Of a stretch of DNA of 64,000 nt, positions 39,875-61,274 are shown in pieces; positions within the stretch are counted from its first letter, which is position 1, and every line of letters begins with the position of its first letter. The position numbers and the translations under genes were made by a program. The notes below the pieces were generated by a model, which was given only the letters and a program-made list of their open reading frames with translations, was not told where the DNA came from and searched no databases. The DNA comes from Pyrofollis japonicus (lineage in GTDB: Archaea; Thermoproteota; Thermoprotei_A; Sulfolobales; Pyrodictiaceae): NCBI RefSeq assembly GCF_033097485.1, contig NZ_AP028634.1, forward strand, positions 496,001 to 560,000, given 5' to 3'.

Positions 39875-42800
39875 TTAGAACACCTTTATGTTGTACTTCG
39901 GCTTGGCTGTCTGTACGCCTGTCAAGCACTTCTCCTTCTCGCCGCTTGGCGGTATCTCGTCTGGCCTGGCTTTTCTGACTGTTGCTGCGCATGTCTTGAA
40001 GTCTGGCTGGAAGAAGTATGGCTGTACGTCGTAGTTGTCCAGCGTTAGCGCGTTTACCAGCTTGTCCTCGTCGTACCATGGTATGAACATGTAGTCTCTT
40101 CTCGGCCCGCCTAGAGCGGTCTTCGGGTTCAGTATCTTTGCTCTTACTGTTATCTTGCCGCGTGGGCTCTCAACTACTACCCAGTCGCCCTCGTTTATGC
40201 CTAGCTTATCGGCTACTTCTTTGTGTATCTCGACGTATGCTTCTGGCTTTACTCTTCTAAGCTCTGGTACACGGCAAGTCATTGTACCGCTGTGCCAGTG
40301 CTCTACTACACGGCCAGTCGTTATCACCATTGGGTAGCCCTTAGCGTCTCTCACTACTAGCTCCTCTCCCGTTTCCTTGATCTTGTACTTTAGCGTGAAG
40401 CCTGGTGCCTCGGCGGGTGCTAGGGCTATCTGGAATATCGCCTCAACGTCGCCGAAGTTGGATTGTAGTGCCTCGCCCCATGTCTTCGTTGCTAGTACTT
40501 GCAGGCCTTTCTCCGGGTCACCGCTGGCGGGTAGGCCGGTGTACTTCTTAACTACCTTGAATGGTCCCTTTGGCGCCTCGAATACTGATATCTTGCCCTG
40601 GAACACTGCATCAGCGTCTAGCTGCTCGTACGCGATTATTACCTCCTTGTTGATCTTCACTTCGCCAGTGTTGTGGTCCATGGTTACCGGTAGCCATGGC
40701 CTCGCCCAGATGGTCATTCTGCCAGTAGGCTTTGCGTAGAAGAGCACGTACCAGTTGTCTGGCATCTTCTTCGATTTCTTCCACTCAACGTCGTCTATCT
40801 CCTCTACTAGGTTCTTCAGCACCCACTTCATGAGCACTGGGTTGTGGCTTAGCTTGCCGAGCCACTTCTTCTTGTGTATCGGGTGCACTATGTTCTCGTC
40901 GAGGCTCTTCACGTATTTCTCTATTTCTTCGGGGCTGTTCATCTTCTTTACATCGTTGTATATCTTCTTTATCACGTCTGGGTCAGGCATTAGCGGGTCG
41001 AATGGATAGGCGTACCTACTCGCGGACTCGAAGTAGTCGTACCTCTTCTTGACACTCGGGTTAGTGGCGTACTGTTCTGGCCACGGCCAGCGGAAGCCGT
41101 TGATCAAGCTCCTGAAGAGTTCGCGCTTCACGTAGCTGAAGTCATAGTACGTGTTCTTTGACAGGCTTAGTATGTCGCGGTCCCATAGCCTATTCATGAA
41201 CTCTTCGTGCCACTTCTTGTCATTGATGCTCTTCTCGACGACGTACTGTACCCATGTCTTGTTCTCGGCCTTGGCGGCCTTCACCACGTCCTCTGGGAAG
41301 AAGCCGCTAACAATGCCCTTTGGTACTAGGCCGCGGTTCTCCCACTCGGTGCCGAGCATTGCGAAGATTACTGCATCGCTTACAGCCTCACCCGGTGGCT
41401 TGATGGTGTACCTTGCAACGCTGTACCTCCTCTCGCTGCAGCCGTACTTGAACTCCTTCTCGCCCCAAGCAGCTGCTGGCAACACTAGGTCTGCCAGGTC
41501 AGTGGTACGTGTTGGATAGATGTCGCTCACAACTATGAACGGGAACGCCGGGTCATCGTCGTGAGGCTTAGCCATGCCTACCCTGAACTTGTAGAGGTTC
41601 GGCAAGCTGTGACCTGGGTTAGTCTCGGCAATCCACACGACCTTTAGCTGACCAGCACCGACGCGGCGGAACATCTCGATTACGTGTGGGCCTGGCACTG
41701 GGTGCACGTAGACCTTCTTCACTTCCTGCTCTATCACGTTGTCGGGGTAACCGCGCTCCTTGAGGTACTGTCTGGTCAGGTTCTTCCAGATGTTCTCTAC
41801 TTCCTGCCTCGCAGCAGCATTGGCTATCAGCCTACCATATGGTAGGACGTGGGCCAGACCGCCCTGGTCACGGATGCCGCCACAAGCGTTTGGCTGGCCG
41901 GTGAGGCTGAAGCTACCAGCGCCCCACTTGCCTATCTGGCCGGTGAGGGCTAGGAAGTTGATTATGCCGTTGATTGCGTGTACTCCCTGTATCTTCTGGT
42001 TGATGCCCATTGTCCAGAATACTAGTAGCCTGCCCTTTGCCATCCACTTCGCGGCAAGTCTTAGTGCTTCAACCTGGTCTATCTCGACGAAGGGGTCTTT
42101 GCCCTTTAGGTTTACCTTGTCTTCACTCAGTTCTCCCTTCTTTATAAGTTCCTCGGCAGTCTTCCTGTTGATTAGCGGCTTCTCGTCACCGAAGAGGATC
42201 TTCGCCATTATCTCGGGCTTGTATAGCTCGAGGAACTTGAGGTATAGTGCGAAGCCACGCCACCAGTCCTTCTCAATCTCGTCCTCGCTCTTGTACTCCT
42301 TACCTATGCTTGGGTACATCTTGTAGTTGGCTGCGTTGCTTGCAGTGGTACCCATATCCCATATCTTGTTAAGCGGGTCAGGTAGCTTGTTGTACTTCGT
42401 GTTATAGTCTTTGAGAGCCCATGTCTTAGCCGTGTTCGTCGGTATCGCGAAGTCTGCATGCCTCTTTAGCCACTTGAGGTCGATGTATTCCCAGTTGCAC
42501 TGGACCTTGCCCTCAGCAACGTCTATGACCTTACACTTGTCCAGCTCGAATGCCACTATGTGGGCTAGTGTGTGCATTAGTGCTACGTCCATACTCCAGC
42601 GTATTGGGAGCCATAGGTCTGCCTTTGTACCGCTTCTGGTCTTTCTTGGGTCTGCGAGGATTATCTTTGCGTTGGGGTTAGCATCCTTGACTGCGGCTAT
42701 GCGTCCAAATACTATTGGGTGTGCTTCTGCAGTGTTAGTACCGATTAGTAGGAATGTGTCAGCATATGTTCCCGGTTCATCCCTGTGCTTCCTTGCCTCC

Positions 42801-43711
42801 TTGAGGCCGCTCTTGAGCGCTATCTCGAGCGGCACATCTATGTGGTCGTAGCTTACTTCGGGCTCGTCAGCACCGTAGCTGGTTATGAAGCCGCCGACAG
42901 CGCTGACCATACACATTCGCGGGTTGCCGTCAAGGTTGTTGGTGTGTATACCTCCCTTGGTTAGCTTGTTTATGACGTAGCTCTCTTCTGTGCCCAGCTG
43001 GCCGCTACCGTAGTAGGCGAAGCTGTGTGGCCCGTACTTCTTCAGCGCGTACTCGAAGACGGCTGTGAAGAACTTTACCGCAGTATCCCAGTCAACTTCA
43101 ACGTAGTTCTTCTTTATGTGCTCAACTGTTGTCAGTGATGCATCATAGTTCTTGCTGACCTTTCTGTTCTTTACGCGTGGCGCCTCCTTAATCTCCTCGG
43201 GTGTTATAGGTGGCCTATTCTTGCCGGGTATAATCCAGTCCTTGATTACGAGAGGCTTCTTCAGCCTCTCCTTAAGTGCCTGTGTGTTGCCTCCGTGACC
43301 TATTGCTTTGTGAATGTAGAATGCCTTGGTACAAAGTGCGCCATAGTTTACGGGGTATGTTGGTATACCGGTTAGGGCAACAATGTCCTTAGCTAGCCCG
43401 GTCTGAGGGTCTGCTATGATCTGTGCTTGTACACCGCAACCGGTTCCACAGAACCTGCATGGGCCTATTGGAACTGTTGTGAGCTTTGGCTTGGCTGTGG
43501 TTGTTGGCTGAGTTGTGGTCGTCTGTCCGGGGGTAATCGTAGTAGTGATTGTCTCGGTCTTCTTTATGAGAGAAGTTATGGTCTTCGGCACTGCCTTAAT
43601 GGTCTTTTCTTTCTCGGTGAACCCGAAGTAGGAGGCAACACCGCCAACTATTGCTAGTGCGGCTCCAAGGCCTATTGCCTTCAAGATATCTCTACGAGTT
43701 TCATCCGGCAA
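39875..43711 (-). CDS. napA: Tat-exported molybdopterin reductase, Nap/Nas-type nitrate reductase
   Basis: This is a bis-MGD molybdoenzyme. A Tat signal (ETRRDILKAIGLGAALAI) and a Thr-rich linker (residues 43-80) precede a [4Fe-4S] site at Cys85, Cys88, Cys92 and Cys127, with the conserved Lys after the fourth Cys. The likely Mo ligand is Cys267 in NPRMCMVSAVGGFITSYGAD, the Nap/Nas form (NarG uses Asp and a His cluster ligand). At 1278 residues it is about 450 longer than bacterial NapA, with insertions through the middle. Nitrate as substrate is inference from this block and from NapG/H/D neighbours; polysulfide or other oxyanions are alternatives. The start is TTG 43711 behind GAGGTT. Confidence 0.82.
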   Translation of the reverse strand: MPDETRRDILKAIGLGAALAIVGGVASYFGFTEKEKTIKAVPKTITSLIKKTETITTTITPGQTTTTQPTTTAKPKLTTVPIGPCRFCGTGCGVQAQIIADPQTGLAKDIVALTGIPTYPVNYGALCTKAFYIHKAIGHGGNTQALKERLKKPLVIKDWIIPGKNRPPITPEEIKEAPRVKNRKVSKNYDASLTTVEHIKKNYVEVDWDTAVKFFTAVFEYALKKYGPHSFAYYGSGQLGTEESYVINKLTKGGIHTNNLDGNPRMCMVSAVGGFITSYGADEPEVSYDHIDVPLEIALKSGLKEARKHRDEPGTYADTFLLIGTNTAEAHPIVFGRIAAVKDANPNAKIILADPRKTRSGTKADLWLPIRWSMDVALMHTLAHIVAFELDKCKVIDVAEGKVQCNWEYIDLKWLKRHADFAIPTNTAKTWALKDYNTKYNKLPDPLNKIWDMGTTASNAANYKMYPSIGKEYKSEDEIEKDWWRGFALYLKFLELYKPEIMAKILFGDEKPLINRKTAEELIKKGELSEDKVNLKGKDPFVEIDQVEALRLAAKWMAKGRLLVFWTMGINQKIQGVHAINGIINFLALTGQIGKWGAGSFSLTGQPNACGGIRDQGGLAHVLPYGRLIANAAARQEVENIWKNLTRQYLKERGYPDNVIEQEVKKVYVHPVPGPHVIEMFRRVGAGQLKVVWIAETNPGHSLPNLYKFRVGMAKPHDDDPAFPFIVVSDIYPTRTTDLADLVLPAAAWGEKEFKYGCSERRYSVARYTIKPPGEAVSDAVIFAMLGTEWENRGLVPKGIVSGFFPEDVVKAAKAENKTWVQYVVEKSINDKKWHEEFMNRLWDRDILSLSKNTYYDFSYVKRELFRSLINGFRWPWPEQYATNPSVKKRYDYFESASRYAYPFDPLMPDPDVIKKIYNDVKKMNSPEEIEKYVKSLDENIVHPIHKKKWLGKLSHNPVLMKWVLKNLVEEIDDVEWKKSKKMPDNWYVLFYAKPTGRMTIWARPWLPVTMDHNTGEVKINKEVIIAYEQLDADAVFQGKISVFEAPKGPFKVVKKYTGLPASGDPEKGLQVLATKTWGEALQSNFGDVEAIFQIALAPAEAPGFTLKYKIKETGEELVVRDAKGYPMVITTGRVVEHWHSGTMTCRVPELRRVKPEAYVEIHKEVADKLGINEGDWVVVESPRGKITVRAKILNPKTALGGPRRDYMFIPWYDEDKLVNALTLDNYDVQPYFFQPDFKTCAATVRKARPDEIPPSGEKEKCLTGVQTAKPKYNIKVF

Positions 43712-45980: not shown

Positions 45981-46700
45981 TTACTTCCTTGTTGCTAGTA
46001 GGTATGCTGCAACGCCTAGTATGAATAAGAGTATGGCGACAGTTATTGCTAAGGCTGTATTGTGTTTCTCCTTGATCTGGGTTGTTGTCTCGCCTGGCAC
46101 TATAGTCGTTGTTGTCTCTTCAACTACTTTGGTCGTCGTAGTGACTATTGGCTTTGCCCCTGCCCCTCCAGCTGCTCCGCCAGCTCCACCGGCCGGCTTG
46201 ACTGTGAACGTCTTGTGAGCGTATGCGTCGCCGTTGAAGCTTCCATCACCATTGGCGGCTAGTACGGAGATTTCAAATGTTACTGGCTGTGGAGACGAGG
46301 GCGCTTTCCACTCAAAGCTCCATTCACGCTTCTTAGAGCCCTCCTTAGTGTGGGTCAAGACCTTGCCTTCTGGAAGCTCTGCTATGAAGGTATCCTTCTC
46401 ATCAGTCACTATTATCTCGCCGCCGGAAACCTTCACTGCAAACCCGCCGCACGCGACGCTAGGATTACAGTCGGGCCCCTTCGTTATCTTTATTGTGATC
46501 TTGTATGTCTTCCCAGGCTCATATGTCTGTGGCAGCCCCTCTACAGTGAAGTCTGCAGGCCTTTTGTCGGCGCCTACATGGCATTGAATACACTTCATAG
46601 CGGGCGCTCCATTGCTCATGGCTTTTGCATGGTGATAACCAGCTAACCCGACTAGTATTATGAAGCCCGCGAGAACGGCCAAGACGAGTATCTTCTTCAT
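45981..46700 (-). CDS. Membrane-anchored mono-heme c protein with choice-of-anchor-V/Reeler-like domain
   Basis: A signal segment (residues 1-25) leads to one heme-c motif CIQCH (37-41). This is followed by a beta-sandwich domain opening FTVEGLPQTYEPGKTYKITI, the pattern of choice-of-anchor-V or Reeler-like domains. A Gly/Ala and Thr-rich linker and a C-terminal membrane helix (TALAITVAILLFILGVAAYLL) finish it. The start is ATG 46700, with GGTGGTG upstream, rather than the longer frame to 46745. It should face outside the cell. It is divergent from the tetraheme cytochrome gene; the function is presumably electron transfer, or possibly ligand sensing. Confidence 0.75.
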   Translation of the reverse strand: MKKILVLAVLAGFIILVGLAGYHHAKAMSNGAPAMKCIQCHVGADKRPADFTVEGLPQTYEPGKTYKITIKITKGPDCNPSVACGGFAVKVSGGEIIVTDEKDTFIAELPEGKVLTHTKEGSKKREWSFEWKAPSSPQPVTFEISVLAANGDGSFNGDAYAHKTFTVKPAGGAGGAAGGAGAKPIVTTTTKVVEETTTTIVPGETTTQIKEKHNTALAITVAILLFILGVAAYLLATRK

Positions 46701-47056
46701 AGTCTTCTTACACCACCATTCATTAATACTTGTGCCGTTAAACACCTTAATTAGCCTAAAATATAATTTAGTTGGGCCAGAAATCTTCGGTACCGGACCA
46801 CCCTTCCTTATTACATATTCATATCATATATTCTAGTCTAGTTCTCGATAAAACGCTATAACTGTATCCTAGGCCCCAGGGAGGTCTCGCCCAGGAGCCT
46901 ATTGTTTGAATTCTTTGCATGCAGATGCGTTATCCAAACTTTTACGGGTCAATACCTTAATCCCTACACTGGTCTCCTTAGGCGCTTGGTAAGCAGGTAG
47001 GCAATAGCATTCTTTTCTAGCGCAGTACGTGAAGTAATTGGGGGGTGTAGAGTGGC
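46701..47056. promoter_or_regulatory. Divergent promoter region between two cytochrome genes, with 32-bp inverted repeat
   Basis: The 356-base gap between the minus-strand mono-heme gene and the plus-strand tetraheme gene holds AT-rich elements (AAAATATAATTTAG near 46758, CATATATTCTAG near 46828). It also holds an imperfect inverted repeat at 46870-46901 (arms TAGGCCCCAGGG and CCCAGGAGCCTA, two mismatches, eight-base loop). No gene is seen. Confidence 0.5.
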
Positions 47057-47767
47057 TTGAAGCATGGTAGCTTGATACCAGTAGTCGTAGTAGCACTGCT
47101 TGTACTAGCCCTAGCTTCACTAACAGTATCTGCTAAGGCAGCAGATAGTGCTAAGAAAGACAAGGAGTACTATAAGACAATATACCCGTGTACTAAGTGT
47201 CATGCCGGGTTAAACCTTAACGGCATGTCGAAGAAGAGCAGCTTCCACAAAATAGATCTAACCAAGGGGGCTCACAGAGGGCTGTACTGTGCTAACTGTC
47301 ACGTAGCTCCAACGATGATACAGCTCCACGGTGACGCATTTGTCTTCATACCAGGCTATCACAATCGCAGCCTAGTCATGCAGACAAACAAGCTCTGCGC
47401 AATATGTCATCCCAAGGAGTACAAGGACTATATGAACCTAGTGCACGCTAACAAGACCTATGTATGCCCCGGCGGTAAGGTTGAGATAGTGCATGGCTAC
47501 AAGGACATAAACTATGATTTTCACATCTGTCCCAACGGCTACAAGAACCTAAAGACAGTGCCTGCTAGGGCATGCGTTGAGTGCCACGACCCACACGACC
47601 CAGTCTTCAAGCCGCTCAACATATTGCCGAAACCCTCAGAGAAGCCTGCGCCACCGCCACAGCGCGACATAGCTATAGGCAACGTACTAGCAATAATAGG
47701 TGCGCTCGTACCCATAGCTTTTGCACTTGTTGCGAGATTTTCCGATAAAACGCCTTTAGAGGGGTGA
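47057..47767 (+). CDS. Membrane-anchored tetraheme cytochrome c
   Basis: Four CXXCH heme motifs are at residues 45-49 (CTKCH), 78-82 (CANCH), 114-118 (CAICH) and 173-177 (CVECH). An N-terminal hydrophobic segment (8-26) acts as signal or anchor, and a C-terminal helix (208-226) as anchor, with the hemes outside. Further His residues could serve as distal ligands. It is not clearly a NapC/NirT protein. TTG 47057 follows GGGGGTG. It heads a tight run with the ferredoxin, NrfD and mono-heme genes (gaps of 7, -8 and 47 bases), so it is likely part of one membrane complex that takes electrons from quinol. Confidence 0.88.
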   Translation: MKHGSLIPVVVVALLVLALASLTVSAKAADSAKKDKEYYKTIYPCTKCHAGLNLNGMSKKSSFHKIDLTKGAHRGLYCANCHVAPTMIQLHGDAFVFIPGYHNRSLVMQTNKLCAICHPKEYKDYMNLVHANKTYVCPGGKVEIVHGYKDINYDFHICPNGYKNLKTVPARACVECHDPHDPVFKPLNILPKPSEKPAPPPQRDIAIGNVLAIIGALVPIAFALVARFSDKTPLEG

Positions 47768-47774
47768 TTGCTCA

Positions 47775-48869
47775 ATGAGTGTCGGTCCGCGCCGGGAAGG
47801 CAGCGGTAATGGTTCTCCAAAGGTGGATGAGTCTAGGCGTAATCTGCTCAAAGCAATGGCTGTTGGGGCGGGAGCTGCTGCTCTTACAAGTGTAGCTGCG
47901 GTTGATAAGGAGAAGTTCAAGAAGGCGCTAAGAAAGGTTTCAATTGAAGACCTACTAGGCGTGCCAGCAGACGTTGAGGCAGGCTCAACACTCGAGATGA
48001 GGGCTAAGAAGAAGGAGAAGGAGCTCAAGGAGTGGTGTCGCAAGGAGGCGGAGAAGATTTGTCAGGAGAGGGGTGATGCATCCGAGGACTGTAAGCTGGC
48101 GAGGCAGAAGTGCGACTTAATCACCGTGAAAGCTACTCCGGCAAAGAAGGGCGTAAGATACGCTATGGCTCTCGATGTTAACAAGTGTATTGGTTGCCGC
48201 CGCTGCGTCTACGCGTGTGTCATGGAGAACAACCAGGCAAGGAACCTAGGCATCGAGTGGATAAGGGTTCTCGAGCTAGACAGAATGGAGTTCCAAGATC
48301 TCCTAGGCTCCGAGTGGTACTATGGAAACGAGGCGCCAAAGAAGGAGAACGTCTACGTGCCTATAGCCTGTATGCACTGCGAAAACCCACCATGCGTCAT
48401 GGTGTGCCCAGTAAAGGCTACGTGGAAGGAGCCAGACGGCATAGTGGTTGTTGACTACGATGTGTGTATTGGCTGCAGGTATTGTGCCACAGCCTGCCCC
48501 TATGGCGCGAGGCGCTTCAACTGGGCAAAGCCCTATGTACCGGTCCAGGAGCTCAACCCCAACATGCACATCCTCGGAAACGTGCCGAGACAAGTACACG
48601 TCATGGAGAAGTGTACTTGGTGTATACAGCGCACACGCGACGGCGGTGTACCAGCATGCGTAGAGGCGTGCCCTGTAGGAGCAAGAGTATTCGGAGACCT
48701 CAACGACCCCAACAGCCCAATACGCAGAATAGCAGAGGAATACGGCCTCTTCGTGCTCAAGCCCGAGGCTGGTACGAAGCCACGTTTCTTCTACTTCTTC
48801 GGCCCATCCCGTACACCGCCTCGTGAAGAAGCCAAGAGTGAAGGCAAGGAGGTGAAGGAGAATGCCTAG
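47775..48869 (+). CDS. Tat-exported four-cluster ferredoxin (NrfC/DmsB/PsrB type)
   Basis: This iron-sulfur electron-transfer subunit has the Tat signal SRRNLLK (residues 20-26) and a hydrophobic stretch to 43. A charged Cys-containing insert (about 70-115) precedes four cluster sites: CIGCRRCVYACV, CMHCENPPCVMVCP, CIGCRYCATACP and CTWCIQR ... CVEACP. Such proteins link an NrfD-type quinol oxidase to a cytochrome or molybdoenzyme. It overlaps the NrfD gene by eight bases. Confidence 0.9.
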   Translation: MSVGPRREGSGNGSPKVDESRRNLLKAMAVGAGAAALTSVAAVDKEKFKKALRKVSIEDLLGVPADVEAGSTLEMRAKKKEKELKEWCRKEAEKICQERGDASEDCKLARQKCDLITVKATPAKKGVRYAMALDVNKCIGCRRCVYACVMENNQARNLGIEWIRVLELDRMEFQDLLGSEWYYGNEAPKKENVYVPIACMHCENPPCVMVCPVKATWKEPDGIVVVDYDVCIGCRYCATACPYGARRFNWAKPYVPVQELNPNMHILGNVPRQVHVMEKCTWCIQRTRDGGVPACVEACPVGARVFGDLNDPNSPIRRIAEEYGLFVLKPEAGTKPRFFYFFGPSRTPPREEAKSEGKEVKENA

Positions 48870-50115
48870 GCAGGATGGATGGTGGGAGACGATCAAATAC
48901 ATAATAGTTGAGGCCCTCAAGGGTAGCAGGCGATACTACCTAGCAGCTGCCGGGCTACTGCTCCTAACAATCTACGGGCTCTACCTATGGATATTCATCC
49001 AGCACGCGCCAGTATTCCTCGGCACGGACTATGGAGGACTAATACTGACAGGGATGAACGACTCGGTGGTATGGGGTCTTTACATATCGTTCTTCGTGTT
49101 CTGGGTCGGAGTGGCAGCAGCGGGTATAGCGTTCTCGATAGCAGCCTATGTCTTCAACCACCCGGAGTTCAAGAAGATAGCAGTGCTCGGAGAAGTACAA
49201 GCAATATCAGCGCTAACGATAGTATTAATGCTGATCGTCGTTGACCTAGGAAGACCAATAAGGGCCCTCTTCGAGATGCCACTGCTGCCAAACCTGCGCT
49301 CAATGCTTGACTGGGACTTCATAGTGATAACAACGTATCTGCTCATAAACCTAGTGGGAGCCCTAGTAACGATACACTACTATAGACGAGACAAGGCGTT
49401 GCCCAAGAAATTCCTAGTACCGTTCATGGTGATTGCGGCGCCTTTCGCCATAGGCATCCACACGGTAACAGCGTTCATCTCACAAGCGCTTACTGCCAGG
49501 CCGATATGGAACTCCCCACTACTGGCGCCACGCTACGTTGCCACAGCGTTCGCAGCCGGACCAGCAATACTACTGATAGCACTGTACCTCGCCGAGCGCT
49601 ACATAGAGGGCTTCAGCGTAAGCATAGAGGTATACAAGAAGACACTATACCTCGTAGCTGGCGCAACAATAGTAGGACTCTACTTCACGCTAAGCGAAGC
49701 CCACGAGATATTCTGGTACACAACTGAGCCAGTAAAGTGGGCTCAGGCAAAGGAGCTATTCTACGGCCCACACCTGCCATACCTAGCAGTACTAACATGG
49801 CTCTGGATAGGGCTTGGCGTCGCGGCAGTAATACTGGCACTAATACCGTCAACACACAACAGTAAGGGAGCAATAGCATTCATATCGCTACTCGTCGTAG
49901 TAGCAGTGATAGCCGAGAAGACGCTAACAATAGTCATACCGGCATATGAGCCAAGCACCCTGGGCGAGATAAGGCCGTATCACCCAACACCCATAGAGTA
50001 CGGCATCACACTCGGAGTGCACGCGCTGGGACTGCTGATATACCTACTACTAGCAAAGCCAGCGATAAAGGCAATAATGACCCACTATTTCAAGCCTGGC
50101 GCGCACCATCACTAA
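48862..50115 (+). CDS. nrfD: NrfD/PsrC-family membrane subunit (quinol oxidoreductase)
   Basis: This integral membrane protein of 417 residues has about ten helices. It begins MPRQDGWWETIKYIIVEALK, and its first outer loop and helices (TGMNDSVVWGLYISFFVFWVGVAAAG) match the NrfD family. Family members bind quinol without heme and pass electrons to the partner ferredoxin. A near-perfect GGAGGTGA precedes the ATG, inside the ferredoxin gene. The C-terminus is His-rich (GAHHH). Confidence 0.92.
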   Translation: MPRQDGWWETIKYIIVEALKGSRRYYLAAAGLLLLTIYGLYLWIFIQHAPVFLGTDYGGLILTGMNDSVVWGLYISFFVFWVGVAAAGIAFSIAAYVFNHPEFKKIAVLGEVQAISALTIVLMLIVVDLGRPIRALFEMPLLPNLRSMLDWDFIVITTYLLINLVGALVTIHYYRRDKALPKKFLVPFMVIAAPFAIGIHTVTAFISQALTARPIWNSPLLAPRYVATAFAAGPAILLIALYLAERYIEGFSVSIEVYKKTLYLVAGATIVGLYFTLSEAHEIFWYTTEPVKWAQAKELFYGPHLPYLAVLTWLWIGLGVAAVILALIPSTHNSKGAIAFISLLVVVAVIAEKTLTIVIPAYEPSTLGEIRPYHPTPIEYGITLGVHALGLLIYLLLAKPAIKAIMTHYFKPGAHHH

Positions 50116-50162
50116 TTTTATGAATTTTATGCAAAATAGTCCACATGGCTGGGGGTGGTTGA

Positions 50163-50825
50163 ATGATGAACGTAAGATCACTAATGGTGTTGGCCCTGGT
50201 TGCAACGATAGTGATTTCCATAGGTATATCGGCTGCCCAGGTTGATGAGGCAAAGGTTAAGCAGATCTTCCAGGCAAAGTGCAGCAGCTGCCACAATGGC
50301 GGAATGGCTCCAACGTTTGAAGGCGTTGTTGAGAAAATGAAGGAGTGGGCCAAGAAGTACAAGAGCCTAGACGAAGCCGTTGCCCACGAATACAAGTTCT
50401 CCGGCGGCGCAAAGAGCTACGACCAAATGATGCAGGCAATGAGGAACTTCGCTGGCGGGCTAAGCGACCAAGACTACAAGCTCCTCTACGAGTACTTCAA
50501 ACAAGTATTCGAGCAAGCTAAAGGAGGCGGAGGAGCCAAGACAACGACTCAGCAGAAGACACCGACAGCAACCAAGACTACTACGACAACTACAACGACG
50601 ACAACCACAACCACTACAACAATACGTTTACCAAAAGAGGTATACACAACGCCTCCGCCAACACTAACCGATACTGCGTGGAAGACTGTAAAGCCCTACA
50701 ACGAGGAGCTCTACGAATCTCTGCCGACCGGACTATATGTTGCAGTAATAGTACTTGTTGCAGGGATAGCGCTAGCACTGATAGCCAAGTATCGGCCAGA
50801 TGCAATACCGTCCATAACCGACTAG
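50163..50825 (+). CDS. Mono-heme cytochrome c with poly-Thr linker and membrane anchor
   Basis: A signal peptide (about 1-25) precedes a small class I-like cytochrome domain with heme motif CSSCH (residues 40-44) and the C-terminal helix GGLSDQDYKLLYEYFKQVF. A Thr-rich linker with a run of at least 15 threonines follows, and a membrane helix (LYVAVIVLVAGIALALIA) anchors it. The Thr run is written with mixed ACA/ACT/ACG/ACC codons, so it is selected at the protein level, perhaps as an O-glycosylated spacer. GGGGGTGG precedes the ATG. It is the last gene of the cytochrome-ferredoxin-NrfD run. Confidence 0.88.
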   Translation: MMNVRSLMVLALVATIVISIGISAAQVDEAKVKQIFQAKCSSCHNGGMAPTFEGVVEKMKEWAKKYKSLDEAVAHEYKFSGGAKSYDQMMQAMRNFAGGLSDQDYKLLYEYFKQVFEQAKGGGGAKTTTQQKTPTATKTTTTTTTTTTTTTTTIRLPKEVYTTPPPTLTDTAWKTVKPYNEELYESLPTGLYVAVIVLVAGIALALIAKYRPDAIPSITD

Positions 50826-52610: not shown

Positions 52611-53300
52611 TTATATTTCTGAGAGCGGCCTCGAGAGCAGAGTAGCTATCACTATGAACGCAAGGGTCATTCCGAGAGCTTGAAGCACTTCCCCCGGCCC
52701 CGCGATACCGGTAGCTGTTTTTGCTAAGACGCGGTCTGCGCTCTGGGCGAAGGGGACAAGGAGGCCAGCCAGCACTATCATCGAAAGCAAGCTCCTAGCC
52801 TCACTATACACTATCATGAACGATGTAAGAGCAGCAGCAGCTGCAAAGTAGAGTCCTACTACAAGGCTTGCAGCTAGAAACATCGGGTTAAGAATGATCG
52901 TTATCGATGAGAAGAACACTGCAGCCCCAATATAGAACAGCAAGAGGACAACAACCACGATGTAAATGTAGACTAGTTTTGCGAGAAACAATGACTCGGG
53001 AGCAACCGGTGAAGCCCTTAATCCATCCAGAGTCCCCTTCTCCGCCTCCCTGACCACGGCTATGAACCCAGCAGCAATAGCCACTATGAACAAGGTTGCC
53101 ACTTCTCCTGCAACGATTACGAGTGGAGCATCGAGCTGAGAAGCAAGTAGCGCAAGAGGCCCGGATACGATATAGGCTACTACTAGCCCTATGAGAGAAG
53201 ACACTATGGCGAGCGATGCTAGCTCGTGCCATCGTCGACTCGTAGTCAGTAAGTCCTTTCTCAGAAGTGCTATTGTTTGGCTCGTCGCCAAAAACCGCAC
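52611..53300 (-). CDS. ccmB: Cytochrome c maturation membrane protein CcmB
   Basis: CcmB is the membrane part of the CcmAB ABC transporter that releases holo-CcmE. The 229 residues hold six helices and the characteristic loop REAEKGTLDGLRASPVAPESLFLAKLVY. GTG 53300 has no strong ribosome site. It is the last gene of the ccm operon, separated from ccmA, its usual neighbour, by ccmC and ccmE. Confidence 0.85.
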   Translation of the reverse strand: MRFLATSQTIALLRKDLLTTSRRWHELASLAIVSSLIGLVVAYIVSGPLALLASQLDAPLVIVAGEVATLFIVAIAAGFIAVVREAEKGTLDGLRASPVAPESLFLAKLVYIYIVVVVLLLFYIGAAVFFSSITIILNPMFLAASLVVGLYFAAAAALTSFMIVYSEARSLLSMIVLAGLLVPFAQSADRVLAKTATGIAGPGEVLQALGMTLAFIVIATLLSRPLSEI

Positions 53301-53393: not shown

Positions 53394-53801
53394 CTAGGTC
53401 CTAGCTGCTGGTTGTCCGTAGTTGCTGTGGCAGCCCTGGAGCACATTAGTTACTATGAGGACCTTGTTGTTGGGGTCATAGATGCCCTCTAGCACGACGT
53501 TGTCTCTATCCCATTTAAGGTACTGTATTGGCCCGTACTTGTCCTCGATTATCTTTGCATCCGCCACTGCGAGCAGCTTAGCGCCGTTCTTGCCGCTTAG
53601 CAGCAGGTAGAGCTTCTTATTGGCAGCATCGTACTGGAGGTTCTCCAGGTATCCGCGCACTGTTACCTTTGCCTCATGGTTCAGCTTCAGTACTTGCGAT
53701 ACATCCATGTACGCGCTGCTCTTCACGGCATAGTAGCCTATGAGGGCGAAGGCGGCGAAGAGTACCAGGGAGGCAATGAATAGCTTGGCTTTACGCTCCA
53801 T
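53394..53801 (-). CDS. ccmE: Heme chaperone CcmE, CxxxY variant
   Basis: CcmE binds heme covalently outside the cell and hands it to apocytochromes. It has an N-terminal membrane anchor (6-24) and an OB-fold domain (AKVTVRGYLENLQYDA ... NVVLEGIYDPNNKVLIVTNVL). In place of the usual HxxxY heme-binding motif, it has Cys124-His-Ser-Asn-Tyr128 (CHSNY): cysteine occupies the histidine position, as in the archaeal/deltaproteobacterial CcmE group. The length of 135 is normal. GAGGGGTAA precedes the ATG, and the gap to ccmC is only four bases. Confidence 0.93.
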   Translation of the reverse strand: MERKAKLFIASLVLFAAFALIGYYAVKSSAYMDVSQVLKLNHEAKVTVRGYLENLQYDAANKKLYLLLSGKNGAKLLAVADAKIIEDKYGPIQYLKWDRDNVVLEGIYDPNNKVLIVTNVLQGCHSNYGQPAART

Positions 53802-53805
53802 GCTG

Positions 53806-54846
53806 TTACCCCTCTACTTGTTTTCTCCGCAGTACTGTATAAGCTAGCCCCGAAATAAGTAGGGAGTAGAGCACGAGATTTGCTATGACGCAGCCCGGCA
53901 CGAGTATCTTTACTTTCTCGGCATGGTTATCGCTGAGGCCGAGTAGTTTTACTACGTGTCCCCCTAGCGCTATTTTACCGTCTACAATATAGCTGGAAAG
54001 ATCCTCGGAGATCGATATATTAGCGTACTTGCCTCCAAGTCTTACTAGGAGGGTCGCGTTATCTGGTGCGCCGAAGACCGCGTATACACGGGTAACAGTG
54101 CCACCGCTGTATTCTGCTGCGAGATACGCTGCAACGCCTATCATAAGTATTGCCGCGATAACAGCGCTTATCTTCAGGACTCGTCTCTCAGTTAGCCCAA
54201 GCTTATTTCTCTCAACGTAGAGCTTAGTGGCGAGGAGGCCGATGAGTAGGACTAGGAGTAGTTTGGTATAGAAGTATGCTCGAACCTCTGGCTGCTCCAT
54301 GAATCCTTGCAGTAGCGCCTTTGTAGGGTGTAGACTCGATGCGGCTATTCTGGGGGCAGCATAGCTTATCGGAACCATGGAGTAGGCTGCTATAGCATAG
54401 GTCGCTGATACGACAGGGGCGCGGTCTGGATCACTAATGCTCGCTCGGAGGGCGAAATAGACAAGATACGCAATAAAGAGTAGCAGGACACCTGTCTCTC
54501 TGGGATCCCAGTTCCATGCAGCACCCCACGATTCTATCGCCCATAGGCTTCCAGAGATGAGTGTGTACGCTGCATACATCGACGCTACTACTATAAATGC
54601 GTAAACGTAGTGGTCGTAGACCTCTCTTCGCCTCATTAAGAACAGTATGGCTGCGATGAAGGCGCCAGTGTAGAGAACATAGCTGTTGATTGCAACTGGT
54701 ACATGGATATAAATGTTGAGATATGCTGCTGGGCTACCGAGCGTGACAAACGCAGGATAGGGCGCGCGTAAAACAGCGAGCACAGTGGTAATTGCATCAG
54801 CTATGAGTACTAGCGCGAGCAGGTACACGAGCCTCCGGGTCTCCAT
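53806..54846 (-). CDS. ccmC: Heme-handling protein CcmC with extended C-terminal domain
   Basis: CcmC loads heme onto CcmE. The tryptophan-rich signature WGAAWNWDPRE is at residues 107-117, and the two heme-axial histidines are in YIHVPVA (His48) and SLHPTKA (near 172). At 346 residues it is about 100 longer than usual; the extra part after the sixth helix (VTRVYAVFGAPDNATLLVRLGG ...) looks like a small extracytoplasmic beta domain closed by a further membrane helix. GAGGAGTGAG precedes the ATG. Confidence 0.88.
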   Translation of the reverse strand: METRRLVYLLALVLIADAITTVLAVLRAPYPAFVTLGSPAAYLNIYIHVPVAINSYVLYTGAFIAAILFLMRRREVYDHYVYAFIVVASMYAAYTLISGSLWAIESWGAAWNWDPRETGVLLLFIAYLVYFALRASISDPDRAPVVSATYAIAAYSMVPISYAAPRIAASSLHPTKALLQGFMEQPEVRAYFYTKLLLVLLIGLLATKLYVERNKLGLTERRVLKISAVIAAILMIGVAAYLAAEYSGGTVTRVYAVFGAPDNATLLVRLGGKYANISISEDLSSYIVDGKIALGGHVVKLLGLSDNHAEKVKILVPGCVIANLVLYSLLISGLAYTVLRRKQVEG

Positions 54847-54932: not shown

Positions 54933-55586
54933 CTAGCCCTTGGCCTCAACAAGGCGCCCGTCAACTATCTCGTAAACCTTGCTGGCGGCCGCTATTAGCT
55001 CTTCCTCGCCCTTAGGAGTAGCTGCCACAATGCTTCCGCCTAGACCAACGTACTCGCGCAGAATACTGATGAGCACTGAGCCAGCAGAGCGATCAAGACC
55101 CGTCAATGGTTCGTCGAGCAAGAGTAGCGGCGGATTACCTAGCATAGCTCTCGCTATATCTGTCCTCTTTCGCCACCCAAAACTTAGCCACGCAGCCAGC
55201 TGCCCTAGTCTCTCGTGGAGCCCGAGCCTCCTAGCCACTGGATCACGAGCGGCATTGTATCCTTCCAGCCCGGCGAGCGAGGAATAAAAGCTTAGATTCT
55301 CGCGGACGGTGAGCTCGTCGTAGAGAAAGCTCCAGTGCATTACTACTCCTCTACACCTCTTAGCCCTAAGGCTCCAGGGCTCATATCCGCAAATTCTTAC
55401 GGTGCCCCGGGTGGGGCGAAGAAGCCCTGCTAATATCTTCAAAAACGTCGTCTTGCCACTACCATTAGGGCCAACTATTACTACGAATTCGCCCTTGCCC
55501 ACATCGAAGTCTATGCCTTGTAGCACCCACATCTTCGGCCTATATGCCTTCCAGAGCCCCCGAACCTCTACCAGCTTCTCACTCAT
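54933..55586 (-). CDS. ccmA: ABC transporter ATP-binding protein CcmA
   Basis: This is the ATPase that powers release of holo-CcmE. Walker A is GPNGSGKTT (39-47), the signature region is WLSFGWRKRTDIARAML (a degenerate LSGGQ, as often in CcmA), and Walker B is LLLLDEPLTGLD. The length of 217 is typical. The ATG overlaps the ccmF stop as ATGA. Confidence 0.9.
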   Translation of the reverse strand: MSEKLVEVRGLWKAYRPKMWVLQGIDFDVGKGEFVVIVGPNGSGKTTFLKILAGLLRPTRGTVRICGYEPWSLRAKRCRGVVMHWSFLYDELTVRENLSFYSSLAGLEGYNAARDPVARRLGLHERLGQLAAWLSFGWRKRTDIARAMLGNPPLLLLDEPLTGLDRSAGSVLISILREYVGLGGSIVAATPKGEEELIAAASKVYEIVDGRLVEAKG

Positions 55587-58500
55587 CGTCCTCCACGCCT
55601 CAGCGCCAACGCCATGCCAGCCAGGTAGAGCGCTGATATAGCCATGAGCACGGGGCCTAGCCAGACAAGCCTTGCACCGGGCACTATCTTTACTTTTACT
55701 GTTAACCCGTCTCTCAGTATTGTCGAGTTCCTGGGGTCGTACTTTGACGCCAACAAGTATACGTCGACGAGGCTTCCTTCGAGCATTGATTGTGCTTGCT
55801 GTGGGTTGCCCAGGTTGCCGAGGAGATCGGATTGATAACCCCCTATCATTACGGCGGCTAGTGCTAGTCGCTCCGGCGGTGTCAGGTTCTTGAAGGCTTC
55901 GTGCAGGTAGTAAATGAGTAGTTCGTGGTACGCTATTTGGCTGCCGTAGAGGAAGCTATTGATCATTGGCGGCTCTAATACTATGTATACTTCGTCTATT
56001 CCCTCGCCTGGATGAATAACCTTTGGGACTAGGCCATGTATACCCTGTATCTCTCCGTAGGCCTCGAACCTTATCCGCTCCTTAACAAGCTTCTCTGACC
56101 CGCCCCTAGATATCTTAAACACGACATCAAGCCACGCCGTTTCGGGCACGAGCTTCGGAGCCTTCACGTAGGCTTCGCACCCATTGGCTGCAAACGATGC
56201 ACCCGAGTGGATCGTTTTTAGGCAGTCGGGCGAGAATGCGAGCTTTAGCACGTTTTCAGGCTCCTTTAGTAAGTCGTAGAGCCCGGTCTCCTTAATAGCA
56301 TCAATGACCTTCTTGTAGCTCGGCGTGGACTCAGCAATATAGTACGTTATTACACCGCTCGGTATCTCTGCGGGAATGCTTGCTATCTTGGTGCCATTTA
56401 CCTCTAGTGTACCGCTCTGTGTATCAAGTATAGCCATCTTACCCCCAATAGTGTTGTTATACGTGTGTAGAGGCTCGCCTTTGCCACCAGTCAGTAATTG
56501 CTCCGATAGAATTGTTGCATTACTTATAATGAGCGTTATGTTGCCAATACTTATTCTGAGAGGCTCTGTAAAGCTAAATGCTAGGAGATCGTGAACTCCC
56601 AGTACGGCTGGCAAGAAGTTTGACACATTTCTCTCAAACACGGCTTTAAGCTCGGCCGCCTGTATCGGCATAAATAAGTAGAAGCTGCCATTGTCCTGGT
56701 TCAGCATTGGTCGAAGAGTAATATTGGTTAACTCGATCTCCACGGGCTCGTTCTGGGCTATGACGAGTGTCGTGTTTGTTGCAAAGTTTATGTACTTTAC
56801 AGTAGCCCTGCCTCTTGCAACAAACGTACCGGGTGCAGGAATTGTGCCTCTGAGTGCTAGCTTAAGTAGTGTCTTGGCAGTAGTGTTTGTCTCGTACATC
56901 TTCTTACCGTTCTCGTACTCTTGTATGAGCCGTGCAAAGTCTTGTGCAAGCGTAAACAGTGCGACTTGTCCATAATAGTAGCTCGCCGTGTGGTTAACGT
57001 ACCTGGTGTAGATGTCTACCTTCGAGTCGCTGATTCCGAAGCTGAATCCCTCGAAGGATAGCTTGAAGCCTCCGGGAAGCACTATTGTGTCTCCAGGCTT
57101 TATGTGGTACTCCTTCATATAGGACTCGTTGAACGCATATGTACCGCTAAGCAGCACACCTATTACCGTTATTGCGAGTCCGAGATGGAGTAGCGATAAG
57201 CCGCTGAAGCGATCCCTTAGGAGTATTAGTAGTCCTTTCTTCGCACGAATAACGATATAGGTTATTGTTGCCGCGGCGGCTGTGCCGGCCCATGGGAGCC
57301 CGAACAGCATCATTGCGTTGGTTGCATCAGGGCTTAGCGGCGCAATGTCAATCTTATCGGTGTAGCCGGCAGCTCCTAGTACAGCAGCTGTGGCGCCAAC
57401 GGTCACGAGGAGGGCGAAGTAGCCTCTCCAGCCAAGCCACTGGCCAAGGAACGCAGCAGGTATGGCGGCGAGCATGACTATGAGCAGCGGGTATAGGACT
57501 GGGTGGAAGAACTTTATCCCAGCACTCATCTGCGGCACGCTTGCACTCTTTCCGGCAACAGTCATGGATGCTGGTACTAGTAGGGTACTGTAGACAAAGA
57601 GGCTGGCAATTATCAGCGAGATCGCGGCCACTAATAACCCTACGCGATAGATTTCGAGGCTCCTCACGCTACGGACAAGCTCTCTCCATCCATCCTCAAC
57701 CTTCTTGTATAGCGCGAGACCGGCTAGTACGAGCCATGCATAGGCGGTTGCTAGCAGTATTAGTGCGCCGAGGCTTGGCGCCGCGAAGCTGTGTAGAGGG
57801 CTCAAGCCAGTACGCGTCACGTACATTGCCAGGAATACCGAGGAGGCTAGTAAGGCCTCGGAGGCCGGGGCAAGGCTAGGAGCAACAACGAGTAGGTGCG
57901 GCAGTATCGTCGCAGCGAGCCAGACCATTAGCTCGCTGGTCTCGACAGGGTCCCAGGCCCAGTATCCTCCCCAGCCGAATGTCTCGTAGCTCCAGTATCC
58001 GCCTAGTAGAATTCCCAGAGTCAGCAGTGCCCACCCTATCTCGAACAATATGTAGCCCTTCCTACGCATACCGGCGAGCAGCGCAGCAGAGGCCACTGCT
58101 AGCAAGGCGTAGCCGCTGAACGTTGACAAGGGGTGGGGGTAGAGCCACGGGCTCTTGAGTAGCGGGTTGAGGCCGGCGCCACTGACAGGCTTCTGTGGTA
58201 GGACAGTGAACGCGTCGTTGAGGAACGCGGCTGCGAGACCTATTACTGTTATCGATGCAAGCGCGGCTTGTAGCCAGCGAGACGTCTCGCTCCTCAACAA
58301 GTAGAGGCCGCCGAGGCTAGCTATCAGTGCGAATAGGAAGAGGCTCCCACCGCCGCCAGCCCAGGCGGCTGCAAACCTCATCCAGGTGGGTAGGCCTGGG
58401 CTAGTGTTCCAGAATACCTCGTGCAGCGTGAAGTCGAGGGTGACGAAGGGTATCCAGTATATGAGCCAGCCTATAGCAACTAATAGAAAACCGATACGTA

Positions 58501-58652: not shown

Positions 58653-60224
58653 TTATACGAATCCAAGGCTGTAGAGGAGCAGGTAAACACCTGATGCGAG
58701 GAGAACTCCTCCGCCGAGCAGGTCAAGAACCTTCTTACGCTCCATTATCCTGTTCACTATTCCGGCCCCAAGCCTAGAGACGGCGTAAAGGACTATTGCT
58801 AGTGGAATGCTTACGCCGAGAGCAAAGCTCGCGGCAACAAGCACGCCAGACAATCCTGCACCACTACCCGCTACGAGAAGCAATGAACCGACGACAAGCG
58901 GCAGGCTACACTGTACTGCTAGGAAGCCGTAGGCCGCGCAGAACCCGATCACTCCTCCTCTCCGAAGACTAAACATGGCATCAAGCTCTACTGGTACCCC
59001 GAACATGCTTGCAGCGCCGGCGGCAATTATTGCGAGAGCTATCACGGGTAGCAATACTTGCTGAACACCTGCTGCAAGTGCTCCCGCAACAACGAAGAGC
59101 AGGCCAATTGCGATAACGCCCGCGAATGATGCGAGGCCGCACGCGCCACAAGTTGCCGCGCTGAGCCTTCTGCCACTGACACTCATTGTAGCGGCTTGTG
59201 TGACGAGAAGCGGCAGGACGCAGGGAGAGAATGCAGCGACAAAGCCTGCAACAAAAGCAGCTATTGCACCAACAATGCTTGTAGCAGTCACGCTCTGCCT
59301 TGAAGGCCTACTAGTTATGGGGGTCGCCTCGCCCTCAACACTGGTAGTATTTGCGCTGATAAGCTGTGCGGCTTTCGAGAGGTTAAGGCTCGGAGGCGTC
59401 CGGTTTAGAAGCACATGCGAAATGTATGAGAGGAGATACGAGGTTCGGTCAAGCTCGTAGGCAGAAATATCAACGTATTTCCTCATAGACAATATTGCGT
59501 CCTGGAGGCCGCTGTAGTCTCCATAGTATTCCTCGAGGGTCTTGTTCTGGGAAATAGCTTGTAGTATAGTGTTTGCGAGGAAGTCGTTCATAGTCTTCCT
59601 GTTCTGTAGCCACTGTCTCAGGGAAGCTGCGTCAAGGCCCGGTATTATCCCGTGGCATGCAGAGCATTTGTTGTTGAAAACGTTGAGCCCCTCCTTTGCA
59701 AGGTTCTCGGGGGTGAGCTGCTTAAGCCCAGCAGCCCCTATAGCCCATGAAAGCATGGCGCTAGTAACGTTATCAGCCACGAACGCGCCTATGTGGCGTG
59801 CAACGACCTTCCCGTTGACAAATACGATGAAGGTTGGTGTGTCGAAGACACTGTATCTCCGGAACACTGGGTCTGTTTGAGCACCGTACATTATGTGGTA
59901 AAAGGAGACCGGGAGACTGTTGCTCATCTCCTCGAGCCTAGCCCAGTAGGGATACATTCTCTTACATACAGGGCACGTAGGCGACTCAAACATGACTGCT
60001 ACCGGCTTCTTCGAAGAGCTTATCAGCTTGTCGAAGGCAGCAGCGCTGGGAATAGAATTGCCCTCTACCTCCAAGTACACCTTCGAGACGCTGTTCATGT
60101 AAGCTACTAGCCCGAACACAATCACGCCTGCAAGCAGTACAAGGCCTATCAGTATTAAACCGCTCTTCTTCTGCCTCTGGAAAGCCTTTAAGTCAAGCCT
60201 CATTGATTTCCGCCGAAACGGCAA
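58653..60224 (-). CDS. Thioredoxin - cytochrome c - CcdA/DsbD fusion protein
   Basis: Three modules sit in one chain. Numbering is from the first in-frame TTG at 60257. A membrane anchor (33-54) is followed by a thioredoxin domain with active site CPVC (95-98) and cis-Pro in DTPTFIVF. Next is a mono-heme cytochrome domain with CSACH (198-202). Last is a CcdA/DsbD-like six-helix domain (from about 325) with its redox cysteines in SPCVLPLL (346) and VQCSLPLVVG. It probably carries reductant across the membrane to reduce apocytochrome cysteines, combining the CcdA and CcmG jobs. TTG 60224 is preferred because GGAGGAGGA precedes it. It heads the ccmF-A-C-E-B operon. Confidence 0.9.
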   Translation of the reverse strand: MPFRRKSMRLDLKAFQRQKKSGLILIGLVLLAGVIVFGLVAYMNSVSKVYLEVEGNSIPSAAAFDKLISSSKKPVAVMFESPTCPVCKRMYPYWARLEEMSNSLPVSFYHIMYGAQTDPVFRRYSVFDTPTFIVFVNGKVVARHIGAFVADNVTSAMLSWAIGAAGLKQLTPENLAKEGLNVFNNKCSACHGIIPGLDAASLRQWLQNRKTMNDFLANTILQAISQNKTLEEYYGDYSGLQDAILSMRKYVDISAYELDRTSYLLSYISHVLLNRTPPSLNLSKAAQLISANTTSVEGEATPITSRPSRQSVTATSIVGAIAAFVAGFVAAFSPCVLPLLVTQAATMSVSGRRLSAATCGACGLASFAGVIAIGLLFVVAGALAAGVQQVLLPVIALAIIAAGAASMFGVPVELDAMFSLRRGGVIGFCAAYGFLAVQCSLPLVVGSLLLVAGSGAGLSGVLVAASFALGVSIPLAIVLYAVSRLGAGIVNRIMERKKVLDLLGGGVLLASGVYLLLYSLGFV

Positions 60225-60425: not shown

Positions 60426-61274
60426 CTACTTTGTTTCGGCTAAAATAACTGGCTTCTTTTCCTCACTCTTTTCCTCAGCCTTGTTCTTTACGCCGAAGTG
60501 GCTCTCAACAAGGTCACGGTACACGTTCTTGTTCATTACTAGGCCGACGAGATAATGTGGCAGCTCATGCCTCAGAAACGCCTCAATCACTTTAGCCTCC
60601 GCCTTGCGTAGTAGCTCTGCTAGCGTCGATACTGAGAGGCCGAGCTTTGCAGCAAGCTCTTTTAGGCTGGTGCGTCGCGGGAACTGGTAGTACCCCATTA
60701 TGTAGGCATATAGTATTGCAAGTTCTTGCTTCTGCGTCAACATGTAGTCGTAGCCGTTAACCTCATGCGATAACAGTATCTTGCATCCCTTTTGCTTTAG
60801 CTCGGAGATTACCTTGCTCTTTGCAACCATGAGTTCGCAGAGAAGCCCGTATGGCGTAATAATAGTGGTCTTTACCATTGATCCAGGCATCGGGCGAAGC
60901 AGTGGGCACTGCCTGCCCTCCCTTATGCATGGACACTTATCCTTCTCTATGATTATCCGGTATACCGTGTTAAACTTGTTGCTAAAGATCTTCTGGAACG
61001 CTATGCCTTCCTCCTGTTTTAGCTTGTTCTCAAAGGCTTCGAGGAGGCCGCTAGCACCGCTTACGCGTATCCAGACCTCGGTAAAGCCCTCCTCGGTGTA
61101 GTGGTATGCACGGAGCACCCGACCAGCGATACCGGAGGTCATTCCGAGAATAGTGTCAAAGACGTTTCCATCATTGTCCTGCGGGGCGTACCTCATAGCC
61201 TTCGCTAGTACGTTTTGGAGTGGGCAGTTCTGCGTATTATGGAGGCAATATACGACTAGGGGTTCATTGGTCAA
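60426..61274 (-). CDS. Bat-type HTH regulator with NarO-like cysteine motif
   Basis: The C-terminal part (about residues 178-240: LTQKQELAILYAYIMGYYQF, then TSLKELAAKLGLSVSTLAELLRKAEAKV) is the bacterio-opsin-activator helix-turn-helix. Cysteines 17, 114, 116 and 123 give the pattern C-Xn-C-X-C-X6-C, close to C-Xn-C-X-C-X7-C of haloarchaeal NarO, the activator of denitrification genes. Three more cysteines are at 10, 146 and 164. It probably binds an iron-sulfur cluster and senses oxygen or redox state. TTG 61274 follows a perfect GAGGTGAT. It lies just upstream of the ccm operon on the same strand; an 18-bp palindrome is in its promoter. Confidence 0.85.
   Translation of the reverse strand: MTNEPLVVYCLHNTQNCPLQNVLAKAMRYAPQDNDGNVFDTILGMTSGIAGRVLRAYHYTEEGFTEVWIRVSGASGLLEAFENKLKQEEGIAFQKIFSNKFNTVYRIIIEKDKCPCIREGRQCPLLRPMPGSMVKTTIITPYGLLCELMVAKSKVISELKQKGCKILLSHEVNGYDYMLTQKQELAILYAYIMGYYQFPRRTSLKELAAKLGLSVSTLAELLRKAEAKVIEAFLRHELPHYLVGLVMNKNVYRDLVESHFGVKNKAEEKSEEKKPVILAETK

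Follow-up and report, generated by a model that had tools for sequence, protein, structure and literature searches.

A conserved thioredoxin–cytochrome c–CcdA fusion protein encoded beside ccmF in Pyrofollis japonicus and related archaea

The window analysed in this study is a 64,000-nt stretch of the Pyrofollis japonicus genome (assembly GCF_033097485.1, contig NZ_AP028634.1, positions 496,001 to 560,000, forward strand). A single-frame gene on its minus strand encodes a protein which combines, in this order, a K/R-rich N-terminus with one membrane helix, a CPVC thioredoxin, a CSACH domain and hydrophobic stretches with SPCxxP and QCxxP motifs (Table 1). Its stop codon lies at positions 58655-58653. 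The longest open reading frame opens upstream, at the in-frame TTG 60257, and the initial annotation began at 60224, which is not a likely start; the ATG at 60203 is the conserved one, since relatives start at the identical MRLD. The open reading frame and the family profiles confirmed that thioredoxin, cytochrome c and CcdA follow each other in one frame, as had been read from the sequence alone. The gene was also correctly placed at the head of a ccm operon: ccmF, ccmA, ccmC and the genes for CcmE-like and CcmB-like proteins lie downstream on the same strand, in the order fusion-ccmF-ccmA-ccmC-ccmE-ccmB.

Table 1 Features of the fusion gene, the ccm operon and the related stand-alone cytochrome c (window positions)
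Feature	Position	Strand	Basis or remark
Thioredoxin–cytochrome c–CcdA fusion gene, 516 aa	58653..60203	(-)	single frame, ATG start
N-terminal membrane helix, about residues 12-40	60084..60170	(-)	hydropathy; helix 12-44 in structure model
Thioredoxin domain, about residues 46-160	59724..60068	(-)	PF00085 and model fold
CPVC active site, C77 and C80	59964..59975	(-)	Cys in every sequence covering both sites
Cytochrome c domain, about residues 162-270	59394..59720	(-)	conservation, profiles, model
CSACH heme-attachment motif, C180, C183, H184	59652..59666	(-)	invariant 23/23
W198	59610..59612	(-)	invariant 23/23
M240, expected (putative) sixth, distal heme ligand	59484..59486	(-)	invariant 23/23; also in cut G018 sequence
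CcdA-like membrane domain, about residues 302-514	58662..59300	(-)	family profile
C328 of SPCxxP, first canonical CcdA Cys	59220..59222	(-)	invariant 26/26
C355, extra membrane Cys	59139..59141	(-)	paired with C422
C422, extra membrane Cys	58938..58940	(-)	paired with C355
C432 of QCxxP, second canonical CcdA Cys	58908..58910	(-)	invariant 26/26
ccmF, 1011 aa	55583..58618	(-)	34 nt downstream of fusion; four heme-handling His H162, H241, H276, H478
CcmF H676	56591..56593	(-)	long, poorly conserved segment between TM-His2 and C-terminus; follows heme-type partner
ccmA, ABC ATPase	54933..55586	(-)	Pfam
ccmC, cytochrome c assembly family	53806..54846	(-)	Pfam
ccmE-like gene, CHSNY close to C-terminus	53394..53801	(-)	operon place, conservation beside ccm genes, CxxxY variant of the CcmE motif (presumed)
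ccmB-like membrane gene	52611..53300	(-)	ABC2_membrane under cut-off; adjoins ccmA in relatives
Stand-alone monoheme cytochrome c in FeS-NrfD-multiheme set	50163..50825	(+)	heme-domain profile match

CcmE and CcmB were assigned by gene position and similarity to relatives only. The CcmE-like product had no match in Pfam, and its CHSNY is presumably the CxxxY variant of the CcmE motif. The four CcmF histidines were named by alignment to 6zmq together with their E. coli positions. CcmF with the P-His and TM-His pairs lies beside CcmA, B, C and E, and CcmH (PF03918) was absent from both the fusion and the whole genome in a search in which the E. coli control was positive; the set thus corresponds to the archaeal type of System I without CcmH. 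The only CcdA-type region found in the whole genome was that in the fusion, and no second CcdA was detected. The promoter scan provided nothing useful. An HTH_10 regulator with a Cys-rich middle is encoded at 60426-61274; in many relatives it is a neighbour of the fusion or of another ccm gene, and it is a candidate regulator of cytochrome maturation.

Residues 1-16 of the fusion contain five K/R and one D/E. The thioredoxin domain was assigned from both sequence and fold: PF00085 matched with 41.9 bits against a cut-off of 23.5 (E 1.1e-10), and the modelled domain superimposed on thioredoxin 4ulx with Z 16.7 (105 residues aligned, rmsd 1.7). When the full fusion model was searched with Foldseek, nearly all of the 50 matches listed were thioredoxin domains. 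CcmG belongs to the redoxin models. At E <= 0.1, the Pfam families listed for the thioredoxin part were PF00085 and PF13098 alone, and neither the redoxin/AhpC-TSA families, typical of CcmG/ResA, nor SCO1/SenC matched the fusion.

Single-sequence Pfam searches were weak for two of the three domains, and family profiles were therefore used for each domain. PF13442 (Cytochrome_CBB3, cut-off 27) scored 19.6 bits on the whole fusion (E 0.0012) and 21.5 bits on the isolated heme domain from the window, both under the cut-off, and matched 16 of 23 heme-domain members at E <= 0.01. The heme-domain profile found CcoP chains as the leading PDB matches (E 0.00035 to 0.00055) and, weakly, the cytochrome part of the Sco1 fusion 2l4d (E 0.033). 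In all 23 sequences spanning the heme domain, the domain columns C23, C26, H27, W41, M83 and L101 are invariant, at a mean column identity of 39%. Every sequence thus has the CXXCH and the distal ligand that are expected of class I cytochromes c (C, C, H and M, 23/23), with the methionine as the presumed ligand. Modelled alone, the domain reached a mean pLDDT of 93. In a structural second look, all 50 matches listed were cytochrome c chains or proteins containing one (c6, cd1 nitrite reductase, photosystem II c550 and others), the best among them being cytochrome c6 with a modest Z of 5.6 (rmsd 3.4, 77 residues aligned). Foldseek alone found no PDB match of the heme domain at E <= 0.001, so that the model lends support to a cytochrome c fold without settling it; the conserved motif is the stronger evidence. 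Judged from sequence, the fusion likely carries covalently bound heme. The linker that follows (residues 271-310) appears flexible, with pLDDT block means of 42-60.

The membrane domain was related to CcdA by its profile. The profile of 26 sequences (alignment A4, 26 of 27 sequences, G098 being left out for its misplaced start) matched the solved CcdA structure 5vkv with E 1.6e-12, the sole PDB sequence at E <= 1. Both cysteines expected of CcdA, in SPCxxP and QCxxP, are invariant (26/26). In Pfam, no CcdA family matched the whole fusion at E <= 0.1; DsbD_TM (PF02683) reached 13.4 bits on the isolated domain from the window, under its curated cut-off of 27.1, and matched 12 of the 26 family members at E <= 0.1 (best 2.4e-05). 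The additional residues C355 and C422 probably form a second membrane Cys pair: among 34 sequences with both columns filled, both cysteines are present in 23 and neither in 11, independently of the heme.

The initial annotation had allowed for a sequencing frameshift that joins separate genes. This is not what was found: the heme-type protein occurs in 25 genomes and is split in only one of them, G005, where the gene runs in two overlapping frames. That single case could speak for a frameshift or an assembly error as the origin of the fusion, but three further neighbours are broken in the same assembly (L041, 9282-15878, where each is split over frames), which suggests indel errors in G005. 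The fused frame was found in independent assemblies down to 34-38% identity, and an artefact is practically negligible as an explanation.

At E <= 1e-20, the family profile matched 38 genomes out of 229 in the class, of which 25 carry the heme-type protein and 13, G080 among them, a thioredoxin-CcdA protein lacking an intact heme domain. CXXCH is visible in 23 of the 25, the sequences of G018 and G102 being cut by contig ends; G102 was entered as heme-type on the strength of its final heme-domain helix only. The heme-free class was assigned from the sequence, for G081 from the profile match ranges. Among 398 genomes drawn from the phylum, 24 matched at E <= 1e-15; of the matches listed, those from beyond the order extend over thioredoxin and/or CcdA positions only. 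The scan of contigs detected 19 loci, in Pyrodictiaceae, Pyrodictium, Thermodiscus, Acidilobaceae, Aeropyrum, other Desulfurococcales and unplaced Thermoproteota; the first pattern scan of genome contigs had given nothing useful, and the plasmid search gave two records with thioredoxin only. Bacteria were covered by the pattern scans of contigs and the plasmid search, which fusions too distant for the patterns could escape, also in other archaeal phyla. One MAG, G016, has two near-identical fusion loci on separate contigs (L037, L111), which are perhaps strain variants.

At 20 of the 24 testable loci, ccmF follows directly downstream of the heme-type gene, on the same strand and within about 115 nt; the other four are those of G035, G025, G159 and G113, and the locus of G157, which runs off its contig, was not counted. 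Heme-free thioredoxin-CcdA genes occupy the same position at 9 of 11 examined places. The gene of an Aeropyrum MAG (G080; L070, 5983-7302), in which the heme domain is eroded, with CGDCH kept and the Trp and Met positions lost, is likewise directly upstream of ccmF and is a possible intermediate of heme loss. G011 and G014 have a heme-type and a heme-free copy, each with its own ccmF, the second, heme-free module lying at another place of the genome (L048, 9385-13585; L049, 9170-13381). These two organisms thus appear to have two parallel cytochrome synthases in one genome. Heme-free thioredoxin-CcdA proteins are found both in relatives and as second copies, mostly beside ccmF. The heme is therefore an optional extra of the thiol-reduction module in a CcmH-less System I variant and is not needed for the basic task. 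Gain or loss of the heme domain required 6 changes on the thioredoxin-CcdA tree (built without the heme-free G081, G109 and G110) and 3 to 4 changes on the CcmF trees.

CcmF was compared between the two kinds of partner. P-His1, TM-His1 and P-His2 are kept in 37/37 sequences and TM-His2 in all 36 sequences with the site. The idea that the cytochrome domain replaces heme b of CcmF was rejected, because these histidines are kept whatever the partner. When the CcmF columns were scanned in the first set of sequences, one column stood out, H676, which was His in 23/23 proteins with a heme-type partner and in 1/11 others (a difference of 0.91 in a scan of 925 columns), whereas the best column in the thioredoxin and CcdA parts of the partner (354 columns) reached 0.77. 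Relabelling of clades, done with this first set, gave an equally extreme column in 3 of 462 cases including the true one. After control CcmFs were added, His676 was found in 24/24 heme-type and 3/22 other sequences, and the column still ranked first of 923. A clean rule that ties His676 to the heme was nevertheless rejected, as two added CcmFs carry His without having a heme-type partner. The three exceptions are G007, G010 and one of the two CcmFs of G024; in the CcmF tree, G007 and G010 group together and the G024 CcmF adjoins those of heme-type loci, as if His had outlived a lost heme domain. The tree test gave 3 independent contrasts, 2.5 of them in the same direction, too few for significance. 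We therefore take H676 as a hint, short of proof, that the fusion may touch CcmF.

These CcmF counts leave out G158 (partner unknown), both CcmFs of G080 (heme domain eroded; one CcmF cut), fragments short of the column (G098 C114 and one G096 piece) and matches lacking usable length (e.g. G095 and G101). For G010, the N-terminal piece was swapped for fragment C283, taken as the same gene by its place at a contig end. G098 C29 was taken as the remainder of the heme-linked CcmF of that genome, and G016 C65 was entered as heme-free on account of 96% identity to the heme-free partner in G011.

The heme-domain profile had two matches in the whole genome, the fusion and a stand-alone monoheme cytochrome c in the same window; cytochromes of this kind also ranked next after the fusions among the 1315 ORFs of the loci. 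The fused domain and a respiratory-type monoheme cytochrome are thus relatives. The set at 47057-50825 (a tetraheme cytochrome, an FeS protein, NrfD and the monoheme cytochrome) is conserved beside ccm genes in many relatives; its nearest NCBIfam models are DsrO and DsrP, both under the cut-off. The NrfD complex was considered as a specific electron partner of the fusion. This is unsupported, because the complex is common to heme-type genomes and to the heme-free G007, G010, G012, G038 and G047. A Reeler-domain protein (45981-46745; PF02014 above the cut-off) has one CIQCH and, at its C-terminus, a hydrophobic stretch; it is similar to the spondin/reeler-type monoheme candidates of Ignicoccus in the available text of Kletzin 2015 (PMC4429474). 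The molybdopterin oxidoreductase at 39875-43711 has 1278 aa, its best NCBIfam models being NapA types, all far under their cut-offs.

The full-text literature search found no description of a heme-bearing thioredoxin–cytochrome c–CcdA fusion, in agreement, within the scope of that search, with the initial annotation, which did not recognize the combination as a described protein. The fusion is a real and conserved architecture in a known pathway, and apparently an undescribed one. According to the accessible sections of the Pyrodictium delaneyi genome paper, a gene located between the ccmF and ccmB locus tags belongs to the 'CcdA superfamily' and is a predicted functional CcmH homologue; these sections mention no heme for it and it is absent from their heme-protein table (PMC5556600). 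By gene order, this gene should be the fusion. The main text of Kletzin 2015, as far as available, mentions neither CcdA, DsbD nor a fusion (PMC4429474).

Each part of the fusion has known counterparts. With CcdA/DsbD-type reductases (5vkv), it shares the two membrane cysteines in SPCxxP and QCxxP and the profile match, and it differs in the N-terminal thioredoxin and cytochrome c and, in part of the family, in the C355/C422 pair. Like CcmG/ResA and the reductive role of CcmH, it has a thioredoxin fold with CPxC on a membrane anchor and a gene that adjoins ccmF, but its thioredoxin belongs to PF00085, not to the redoxin families, is covalently tied to its own CcdA and is accompanied by a heme domain. 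In Sco1-cytochrome c fusions, a thioredoxin-fold assembly factor is fused to a class I cytochrome c, and their role lies in the assembly of the copper centre of cytochrome oxidase; 2l4d ('SCO1/SenC family protein/cytochrome c'), the weak match of our heme-domain profile, is bacterial and lacks a CcdA domain. System I without CcmH is said to have been described in archaea by Allen in 2006. The CcmABCEF set, the CxxxY-type CcmE and the lack of CcmH found here are common to the archaeal systems described in the available parts of two papers (PMC9084895; PMC4429474). According to the first of them, CcmG and CcdA of M. acetivorans are encoded by separate genes, unlike in the fusion, and whether archaea have replaced CcmD/H/I remains unclear (PMC9084895). 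DsbD has also been proposed to pass electrons to an extracellular non-thiol cofactor, a flavin located in separate proteins according to the excerpt available, versus a fused heme c here (PMC8238504).

In the sections of a paper on heme ligation available to us, ligation requires both reduced heme and reduced thiols; CcmF heme b is the proposed reductant of incoming heme, and CcmG/CcmH reduce the thiols (PMC10746174). Data from Shewanella, again from a partly available text, suggest electron transfer from the cytochrome c NapB to CcmG when DsbD is missing, i.e., a cytochrome c apparently reducing a Ccm thioredoxin, although the potentials look unfavourable to the authors (PMC8782879). NapB is a separate protein that acts in a rescue path, whereas heme, thioredoxin and CcdA are in one chain here. 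These ligation needs and the NapB-CcmG precedent make a heme-thiol link in the pathway plausible in either direction. Of the two explanations offered in the initial annotation, electron exchange between heme and thiols thus stays plausible and has a precedent, while the redox switch gained no specific support, as heme-free versions of the same protein also adjoin ccmF.

We infer that the fusion works with CcmF as the reductant of apocytochrome thiols, and that its heme exchanges electrons with the thiols, with CcmF or with respiratory cytochromes; in this full form we give the reading a probability of about one half, and its first part, a thiol reductant beside CcmF, is by itself likely from motifs and gene position. 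The fusion would be the dedicated reductant of the CcmF cytochrome c synthase in an archaeal System I variant without CcmH. Electrons would pass from a cytoplasmic thiol reductant to C328/C432 of CcdA, then to the CPVC of the tethered thioredoxin and finally to the CXXCH disulfide of the apocytochrome beside CcmF. The heme would most likely act as a one-electron port between this thiol relay and CcmF (near H676) or respiratory cytochromes, and through this port both heme iron and thiols could be kept reduced for ligation. As the heme domain itself needs covalent heme, the machine would have to mature a part of itself. Several observations count against this reading, among them the heme-free thioredoxin-CcdA proteins beside ccmF and the occurrence of H676 in three CcmFs that lack a heme-type partner. 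In addition, ccmG and ccdA of M. acetivorans are dispensable under reducing conditions, as stated in the part of the paper available (PMC9084895). A bolder version is tentative and clearly less probable: the fused heme c might dock close to H676 on the outer domain of CcmF, passing single electrons between the thiol relay and the heme under ligation. One protein would then supply both reductants, the system would be autocatalytic, since the first cytochrome it makes would be its reductase, and the fusion would make up for the CcmH that these archaea lack.

Electrons might also flow the opposite way, the heme draining them from the thioredoxin to the respiratory chain, so that the protein would oxidize or isomerize secreted thiols in the manner of DsbB, and CcdA would provide a balancing input. 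The closest relative of the fused domain is indeed a respiratory-type cytochrome beside NrfD/FeS genes, and a His/Met cytochrome is usually a stronger oxidant than a CXXC thiol pair. However, CcdA moves electrons outward, the gene is linked to that of CcmF, an enzyme which needs its substrate thiols reduced, and heme-free versions hold the same place; we consider this direction improbable. Hardly a better case can be made for a mere docking domain, in which the cytochrome fold and its heme would hold CcmF or the apocytochrome and take over some of the tasks of CcmH/CcmI, with no electron transfer of note. The lack of CcmH in the genome, the flexible linker 271-310 and the association of H676, which would suit a contact, agree with such a role, but it leaves unexplained why the heme ligands and cysteines are strictly conserved amid a varying rest.

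Still less probable is a built-in test substrate, i.e., a self-matured CXXCH domain which serves as a sensor or switch and enables the reductase only if heme ligation works, as in the redox switch of the initial annotation. A substrate-type domain inside a maturation protein encoded beside CcmF invites this idea, but the heme-free relatives, apparently also partners of CcmF, manage without the domain, which looks like a functional cytochrome, its Met being invariant where the distal ligand is expected.

At stake in the preferred reading, the thiol reductant of CcmF with an electron-exchanging heme, is how heme is ligated without CcmH in archaea and where the reduction of heme and thiols at the synthase comes from. 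A conserved protein tied to ccmF and predicted to combine a thiol relay with a heme would offer a direct entry to heme-thiol electron exchange in cytochrome assembly, with the heme-free copies of G011 and G014 as a natural control. The assembly line for c-type cytochromes in these archaea appears to contain, and to depend on, one of its own products.
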